Virus record (IMG/VR): IMGVR_UViG_3300005563_000082
Span: 1-29,643 of that record
Length of the DNA: 29,643 bases
Direction: 5' to 3' (one strand)
DNA from: a virus
Both the position numbers and the translations under genes were made by a program. The notes beneath the pieces were generated by a model. The model did no database searches. It was not told the origin of the DNA and saw only the letters and a program-made list of their open reading frames with translations. This document shows positions 16,294 through 17,632 of the stretch, one piece after another. Each line of letters begins with the position of its first letter. The first letter of the stretch is position 1.

Positions 16294-16808
16294 AGGAGCC
16301 TGCTCGGGTCGGCGGTCCACGAGGTCAGGCCGCAAGTGCCGCAGAAGGCCGACAGGCGAGGCGCGTGCATGTCCTGCTCGAACTCGCCGACGATGCAGAC
16401 CGGGCACGCGGTCGAGTAGCGGCGATGGCGGTACTCGGTGCCCATTTCGTCGAACTCGCTGTGGCTGATGCAGCAGGGATCGCACACCGGCACGACAGGG
16501 ATGAGCCGGGGCGGGATCCACTCTCGCCAGTTCGACCGGTTCTGGTTGCAGCTGGCGCACAAAGTCCGCAGGTTGTCGCTGGTGTCGGAGCCGCCGGCGG
16601 ACCAGGGCAGCACGTGGTCGAGCTGGAGCGGGCCATTGCTGCCGCAGTAGCGGCAGCGACGCCCGTCGCGCTCGTAGACGAGCTGGCGCAGGAACGGGTG
16701 CAGCTCGCCGCGCTTGCCGTACCGGACGCGGGGGTGGCGCTCGTAGGGCTGGAGAGCGTCGTCGAGGAGTTCGCGAACGACGTCGGTCATTTCGGGGGGC
16801 TCGGTCAT
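16290..16808 (-). CDS. HNH endonuclease
   Basis: This 172-residue protein contains a full HNH site: CRYCGSNGPLQLDHVLPWSA (Cys52, Cys55, Asp64-His65), then GGSDTSDNLRTLCASCNQNR (Asn79, Cys84, Cys87). Two more Cys clusters follow (VCDPCC and FCGTCG), probably zinc ribbons. HNH enzymes near terminases are often needed for packaging, but this one lies in the early operon next to the replication gene, so a role in replication or recombination, or a selfish homing activity, is equally possible. Overlaps of four bases link it to both neighbours. Confidence 0.88.
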   Translation of the reverse strand: MTEPPEMTDVVRELLDDALQPYERHPRVRYGKRGELHPFLRQLVYERDGRRCRYCGSNGPLQLDHVLPWSAGGSDTSDNLRTLCASCNQNRSNWREWIPPRLIPVVPVCDPCCISHSEFDEMGTEYRHRRYSTACPVCIVGEFEQDMHAPRLSAFCGTCGLTSWTADPSRLL

Positions 16809-17632
16809 GTCGGGACCTCCTCACGTTCGGTGGTCGTGTGCGGAGCGTTGCGGCGGCAGAGCGGACATCGCGGGGTGCCGTCGGGCTCGGCGGTGCCGTC
16901 GAGCCCGTGGGCGCACTTGGGGCCGGTGCGGACTCGGTCCGGTTTGGACAGCGGCAGGATTTCGTCGAGGGTTCGGGTGGGCGGCGGTTCGCGCGCGTCC
17001 GGTGGTTGCGCTGGGAGGTGACTACCGGTGTTGGTCCTCTTAGGTGGTTTGGTCAACTTGGTAGTCGGACATAGCTGTGTCCGGTCAATCGCCTCAGAAT
17101 GTCCGGTCATTCGTTTCGTAACGCTGTTAGATGTCCGGTCATTCGGGGCGGCCTCAGTGGATTGAGAGGACATCTGGATGTCCGGTGATTCCGAGTTATC
17201 CACAGGTTCGTCAGCCGTTTGACCGGACACCTGGATGTCCTCTGATTCATCGAATGACCGGACATCCAGGTGTCCGGTCGGTTCGTCCCGCCGACCGTCC
17301 GGAGAGAGCATCTCAACCCGTTCCATGAGGTCCACGGGGATCGTCAGCCGGTACTCCGACGCCTTCCCGCGACCGCCTCGGCCGCCTCCACGGGAGACGA
17401 TTTCGAGGAGCCCGAAGCGGTTCCGCAAGGCGGCCAGCAGCCGCCGAACGTTACGCTCCGTGTCACCGGTGACGTCCGCGAGGACCTCGGCACCGGGGCG
17501 GATGCGCGAGCCGTCCGGGTCGGCGTAGGTCGCCAGAGCGAGCGCCAAGAGCTTGTACGGCTTGGGCATCACGATCCGGCGGACGATCCGCTCCCACTCG
17601 TACCGGCGGGCCGGCATCAGCTCCTCGGTCAC
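16805..17632 (-). CDS. Winged-helix replication initiator-like protein
   Basis: This 275-residue protein starts VTEELMPARRYEWERIVRRI. Residues about 24-100 form a winged helix: MPKPYKLLALALATYADPDG, then TGDTERNVRRLLAALRNRFG and a Gly/Arg-rich wing. The middle (about residues 117-189) is polar and low in complexity and is encoded by an array of palindromes with a DnaA box, as in lambda O, whose origin lies inside its own gene. The C-terminus ends with a zinc ribbon (KCAHGLDG...PRCPLCRR). The GTG overlaps the previous stop by four bases. No helicase loader or helicase gene is visible nearby. Confidence 0.78.
   Translation of the reverse strand: MTEELMPARRYEWERIVRRIVMPKPYKLLALALATYADPDGSRIRPGAEVLADVTGDTERNVRRLLAALRNRFGLLEIVSRGGGRGGRGKASEYRLTIPVDLMERVEMLSPDGRRDEPTGHLDVRSFDESEDIQVSGQTADEPVDNSESPDIQMSSQSTEAAPNDRTSNSVTKRMTGHSEAIDRTQLCPTTKLTKPPKRTNTGSHLPAQPPDAREPPPTRTLDEILPLSKPDRVRTGPKCAHGLDGTAEPDGTPRCPLCRRNAPHTTTEREEVPT
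17067..17283. other. Putative phage replication origin: palindrome array and DnaA box
   Basis: Four palindromes of identical geometry, GGACA-N6-TGTCC, lie at 17067-17082, 17168-17183, 17225-17240 and 17260-17275. The 13-mer TGTCCGGTCATTC occurs exactly at 17100-17112, 17132-17144 and (reverse) 17252-17264, with one-mismatch copies at 17078-17090 and 17179-17191. A perfect DnaA box, TTATCCACA, sits at 17196-17204 between the second and third palindromes. All lie inside the winged-helix gene, encoding its disordered linker. Confidence 0.7.
17196..17204 (+). promoter_or_regulatory. DnaA box TTATCCACA
   Basis: This is an exact match to the classical bacterial DnaA box. Its place in the middle of the palindrome array makes a chance match less likely and suggests the host initiator helps open the phage origin. 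Confidence 0.6.

Follow-up and report, generated by a model that had tools for sequence, protein, structure and literature searches.

Why should a phage gene for a winged-helix protein carry a dense set of palindromic repeats in its middle, and does the DNA or the encoded peptide matter there? The IMG/VR virus record with this locus is 29,643 bases long, and we refer to the whole stretch as the window. An earlier note on this DNA had read the repeats as a replication origin embedded in a replication gene, and comparison with about 60 relatives supports that reading: they keep the array, the position of a DnaA box and an adjoining tract as DNA, their repeats covary with the recognition helix and wing of the encoded protein, and the protein matches O-like PHROG families. 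From these sequence comparisons, the array is very likely an intragenic theta-type replication origin of the phage, set inside the gene of its own initiator.

Genes for RecT, a YqaJ exonuclease, a RuvC-like resolvase, an HNH protein and a serine integrase neighbor the initiator gene, which identifies the surroundings as the early region of a temperate phage, here an actinobacterial one. The 29.6-kb window may be incomplete, as the 16.8 kb around the initiator gene are identical in another contig, of 39 kb.

A repeat array in the linker-coding part of the gene

The initiator gene (positions 16805 to 17632, minus strand) is an open reading frame for a 275-aa protein with matches to O-like replication initiation families in PHROG. 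Its product joins a winged helix to a linker encoded by the array and a zinc-ribbon-like C-terminus. Repeat searches delimit the array to 17062-17280, where ten half-sites of TGACCGGACAT, read in the gene sense with up to three mismatches allowed, form four inverted pairs and two singles. The earlier note had located the array in the part of the winged-helix coding sequence that specifies residues 117-189, and these coordinates are correct. All four inverted pairs share one 15-nt offset and correspond to the palindromes GGACATCCAGGTGTCC (17260-17275), GGACACCTGGATGTCC (17225-17240), GGACATCTGGATGTCC (17168-17183) and GGACATAGCTGTGTCC (17067-17082), the last of which adjoins the ACCA-rich tract described below. 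Exactly four copies of GGACA-N6-TGTCC are found in the window, at 17067, 17168, 17225 and 17260, all of them inside the array, whereas dinucleotide shuffles lead one to expect 0.03. The 13-mer TGTCCGGTCATTC has three exact copies, at 17100 and 17132 on the plus strand and at 17252 on the minus strand, and two further copies with one mismatch, against an expectation of 0.06. Both the four evenly built palindromes and the three exact 13-mers of the earlier note are thus borne out. Ahead of the ACCA tract, three half-sites in the same orientation follow one another at 32 and 22 bp (17077-17141, minus strand), a spacing that is kept in relatives. The array is also a local GC minimum, at 53% compared with about 70%.

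The layout is conserved as DNA

Direct searches with the window protein, using the whole protein or the domain alone, returned no named phage and no genome contig. Relatives were instead reached through an alignment with one Micromonospora plasmid record in which phage genes are present, and alignment searches then found viral contigs, Nocardia and Paractinoplanes contigs, and many genomes of two actinobacterial families. The set therefore spans phages, a phage-like plasmid and genomes of actinobacteria. We examined 72 loci for repeats and kept the 63 with a clear array, leaving out nine without one.

In each relative the array lies directly 3' of the winged-helix domain, and its repeats are its own or common to close kin only. 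Long forms have an intragenic array that is translated as a linker. In a short Nocardia/Micromonospora type, the protein ends at about 115 aa and an untranslated intergenic array follows. Because the array is kept whether translated or not, selection acts on the array DNA itself rather than on the peptide. A DNA signal maintained within a gene can be seen this cleanly because some relatives carry the same signal out of frame. The earlier note had proposed comparing the array across relatives for conservation beyond codon constraint, and such conservation is what we observe, with array, box position and tract kept in coding and noncoding settings. Repeated sites inside an initiator gene that are conserved as DNA are what an intragenic iteron origin would be expected to show.

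The repeat sequences vary among relatives, and what is kept is the half-site spacing, the distances to the DnaA box, the tract and the end motif. When the last three half-sites in one orientation are compared at 59 loci, their spacing is mostly 22/22 or 33/23 bp, and distances of 22 or 33 bp amount to two or three helical turns. One variant deserves separate mention: a locus (L043, 1501-2175) has a 255-aa open reading frame with two tandem winged-helix copies, which may encode a fused-dimer initiator, and TCGTATTTGGCAC repeats form the array behind it. Separately, a viral contig (L013, 7163-7319) contains a low-complexity tract of CGGCGACGG/CGGCTACGG repeats.

A DnaA box, an ACCA-rich tract and an end element

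The earlier note had also seen a perfect DnaA box amid the palindromes. This box, TTATCCACA (17196-17204, plus strand), lies within CCTGTGGATAAC on the gene strand and is the only TTRTCCACA in the whole window, where 0.11 would be expected. Judged by the window by itself, the box is no more than suggestive. Boxes are enriched at the same place in relatives: array regions totalling 26 kb contain 41, and 388 kb of other sequence contain one, a density about 600-fold higher in the arrays. The box is present in 31 of 73 loci, and a consensus box is missing from about half of the relatives. A consensus box at a conserved place is what would be predicted of a DnaA-assisted origin. Six intragenic members, the window's identical copy included, were compared. 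Their repeats comprise several unrelated sequences, yet in all of this variety sites recur at about +16, +32, +63, +95 and +117 from the box, with some of these positions missing or shifted in individual members. In long forms, CCTGTGGATAAC with its DnaA box codes for Pro-Val-Asp-Asn, a protein-level mark of the origin.

Beyond the array lies a strand-asymmetric, ACCA-rich tract with four ACCA (17032-17062, minus strand), which, judged by the tracts of relatives, is a candidate unwinding element. After their arrays, relatives have 2.71 ACCA per 70 nt compared with 0.37 in controls, and 0.11 per 70 nt of the opposite-strand TGGT; the conserved tract is about 57% GC. Relatives also share an element near CGCAACTCACGACCGCGCG, mostly 45-70 nt past the array and 3' of the ACCA tract. 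At 79% of loci it scores above the 95th percentile of controls, under a model that was seeded by eye from the same sequences. The window's version, CGCAACCACCGGACGCGCGCGAAC (16986-17010, minus strand), was located by hand; the automatic end-motif search missed it (score 1.8), and the likely reason is a spurious site that displaced the end of the array.

The initiator and its match to the array

Residues 1-109 (17306-17632, minus strand) form the winged-helix DNA-binding domain in an AlphaFold2 model built with 41 sequences (pLDDT 90, pTM 0.82). The recognition helix spans residues 59-72 (17417-17458, minus strand) and the wing residues 81-92 (17357-17392, minus strand). Near the other end, residues 240-259 (16856-16915, minus strand) make up a zinc-ribbon-like motif, CxHGL...PDG...CPLC, which recurs as CxHGL...PDG...CxLC near the end of many long-form relatives. 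The window protein matches the replication initiation/O-like families phrog_391 (9e-7) and phrog_270 (4e-6), which are matched by 31 and 37 of 41 relatives, respectively. HTH_36 is found in the window protein at E 0.0075, below the gathering score; of 41 relatives, 38 match it with an E of up to 1 (best 2.9e-11). By these matches the window protein belongs with the O-like phage replication initiators that have an HTH_36 domain. The RepA_N family (PF06970) is absent among the window protein's matches at E up to 1 and from the 25 commonest families of the 41 relatives, and we do not assign the initiator to it. A sequence search of solved structures with the initiator gave generic winged-helix regulators alone, and a Foldseek search of its model against the PDB gave nothing below E 0.001; the top Foldseek hits include 5kbj, a complex of Rep with DNA, at a non-significant E of about 0.005 and a TM of about 0.5. 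The AICE replication types RepSA, RepAM and Prim-Pol (PMC3218068) were set aside for this initiator, as their domains differ.

If the protein binds its own array, its DNA-contacting residues should track the repeat sequence. We computed sliding-block partial correlations between repeat similarity and block similarity, controlled for the rest of the domain and excluding the nine loci without a clear array. Covariation peaks at the start of the recognition helix (0.41) and at the wing with the second strand (0.43), against a block mean of 0.10, and is near zero or weak in the remaining blocks of the domain. This covariation is of moderate size, among relatives that are not independent of one another, and partial Mantel p values are 0.0005-0.04 across different subsets. 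Both peaks coincide with the DNA-contacting parts of the winged helix in the model. Since repeat similarity tracks the recognition helix and wing, the winged-helix protein very probably binds the array of its own gene. The array, box and tract, their conservation as DNA and the covariation of protein and array are thus established by computation.

Alternatives to an origin

Palindromic sites are typical of repressors, and the earlier note had offered as an alternative that the array is an operator for an HTH protein, through which the winged-helix protein, or a different HTH protein encoded by the phage, would repress transcription. Several HTH genes do lie close to the initiator gene, and autorepression by the initiator could coexist with origin function. 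An operator would, however, be expected near the gene's promoter, and relatives have 10.1 repeat sites per array, whereas the 380 nt that lie upstream of their domain have 0.22 (control stretches have 0.11 and 0.03); in long forms, moreover, the array is inside the gene. Nor are DnaA boxes, an ACCA tract and helical-phase spacing operator features, and the tracking of the repeats by the DNA-contacting surface of the gene's own protein argues against another HTH protein as the binder. The operator alternative is therefore unsupported, and we consider it very unlikely.

Less probable still is that the repeats serve an extrachromosomal prophage in partitioning, as a parS-like site, or in incompatibility, and not as the origin. 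Iteron arrays can serve partition or copy control, and one relative is a plasmid record, but the window proteins scanned include no ParA/ParB-like protein, a serine integrase is encoded in the window, the DnaA box and tract point to initiation, and the protein predicted to bind the array comes from replication-initiation families. We give least credence of all to the repeats being a by-product of a repetitive protein linker, with no function as DNA. The linker is of low complexity, with SPDIQ/EDIQ-like words, yet its half-sites use all three codon phases and both strands, and synonymous re-drawing of its codons rarely recreates the repeats: of 200 trials on the window, 1 attained the observed count, and the same test on six long-form relatives gave 0 or 1 of 200. 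Together with the untranslated arrays of short forms, these results exclude a mere peptide by-product, and a geometry that stays while the repeat sequence changes also argues against it.

Proposed mechanism and distribution

For the origin reading, we infer binding, melting, helicase recruitment and initiation at the array as follows. The winged-helix domain would bind half-sites through its recognition helix and wing, with initiator pairs on the palindromes and further initiators on the last sites of the array, which lie on one face of the helix at intervals of 32 and 22 bp. Host DnaA, which probably assists at this origin, would occupy the mid-array box and aid the complex. The assembly would melt the adjoining ACCA-rich tract, one strand of which would probably be held by the initiator and/or DnaA, and host helicase and primase would enter next, with DnaA as the probable route and the zinc-ribbon C-terminus as a possible one. 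Helicase recruitment by DnaA is plausible. The remark in the earlier note that no helicase or loader gene is visible nearby holds for the window proteins scanned, among which no helicase, loader or primase was recognized.

Iteron arrays of this kind occur in mycobacterial prophages too, and in Mycobacterium phage phiGD34-2 intragenic iterons alternate with DnaA boxes. For extrachromosomal mycobacteriophage prophages, a published study detected no repeated motifs in the region that it covered, and the origin was merely presumed to lie in or beside repA (PMC7157519). Mycolicibacterium phages of 10.9 kb, WillG and its kin (L089, 4741-5853), have a small, satellite-like gene set; their initiator is of the same type, and its gene contains CTCACGGGACAT repeats and lacks a consensus DnaA box. 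Bordetella phage PHB09, in which the gene is annotated as replication protein O, carries the same kind of module, and related viral contigs have arrays with 21-22 bp spacing and then AACCATCA repeats, which suggests that the layout extends past actinobacteria. The loci concerned (L090, 3240-3450, and L092-L135, one of them from a Bordetella phage) encode O-like initiators whose genes contain iterons at intervals of 21-22 bp; AACCATCA-like repeats in tandem come next.

With rather more doubt than conviction, we propose that these loci represent a very widespread class of phage replicons, in which an HTH_36 winged-helix initiator would read fast-changing iterons, a shared ACCA/AACCATCA unwinding element would be read as a single strand, repeats and recognition surface would co-evolve into many incompatibility types, and the origin would move in and out of the coding frame. 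An origin module that can be recognized, is widely distributed and has a readable specificity code gives testable predictions of which phage and plasmid initiators recognize which origins, a means to find origins in uncharacterized actinobacterial elements, and candidate compatible replicons for genetics.

Comparison with known systems

The lambda origin lies inside O, with mid-gene iterons of inverted symmetry and an adjacent unwinding region (PMC6022878, PMC7466680). The earlier note's comparison with lambda O is apt: the window likewise has mid-gene iterons with inverted symmetry, a DNA-binding N-terminus, an adjacent candidate unwinding region and a separate C-terminus, and the PHROG families it matches are named O-like. 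Unlike lambda, the window has a DnaA box embedded in the array, a tract that is ACCA-rich where lambda's is AT-rich, single half-sites 22/33 bp apart in addition to palindromes, and a protein with a zinc-ribbon C-terminus; among the proteins scanned it also has no recognized P-like partner, that is, no sign of an O/P-type phage-encoded helicase loader. SPP1 gp38 binds repeats within its own gene 38 (oriL), beside an unwinding element (PMC6316719), and the window's repeats similarly sit in the initiator's own gene next to a candidate element of this kind. SPP1 has its own loader, gp39, and helicase, gp40, neither type of which was found among the scanned window proteins.

Among plasmids, pSK41 has its origin in rep, whose product has a winged-helix N-terminus, a dispensable linker encoded by the origin and a host-facing C-terminus; the pPR9 initiator is phage-like, with HTH_36, and its rep region supports autonomous replication; and DnaA boxes had gone undetected in staphylococcal plasmids as of the review (PMC5703833). 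The window shares with the pSK41 and pPR9 initiators the winged-helix N-terminus, a probable origin in the linker-coding part and possibly a host-facing C-terminus. Unlike RepA_N initiators such as that of pSK41, its protein has no listed RepA_N Pfam match and a different C-terminus, and unlike in staphylococcal RepA_N plasmids, its array contains a DnaA box.

In iteron plasmids with a DnaA box (RK2 type) and for Vibrio RctB/oriC2, the origin normally lies outside the initiator gene. Plasmid Rep proteins bind one strand of repeats in the unwinding element (PMC4081077), and ATCA repeats in the unwinding element of Vibrio oriC2 are bound on one strand by RctB (PMC10316083); given this strand-specific binding, the ACCA tract is a candidate of the same kind. 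The window thus resembles RK2-type iteron plasmids and RctB/oriC2 in combining initiator sites with repeats in a candidate unwinding element, whereas the initiators of those systems belong to other families. What is new here relative to known intragenic origins is the embedded DnaA box, the conserved tract that is not AT-rich, and the visible specificity code.
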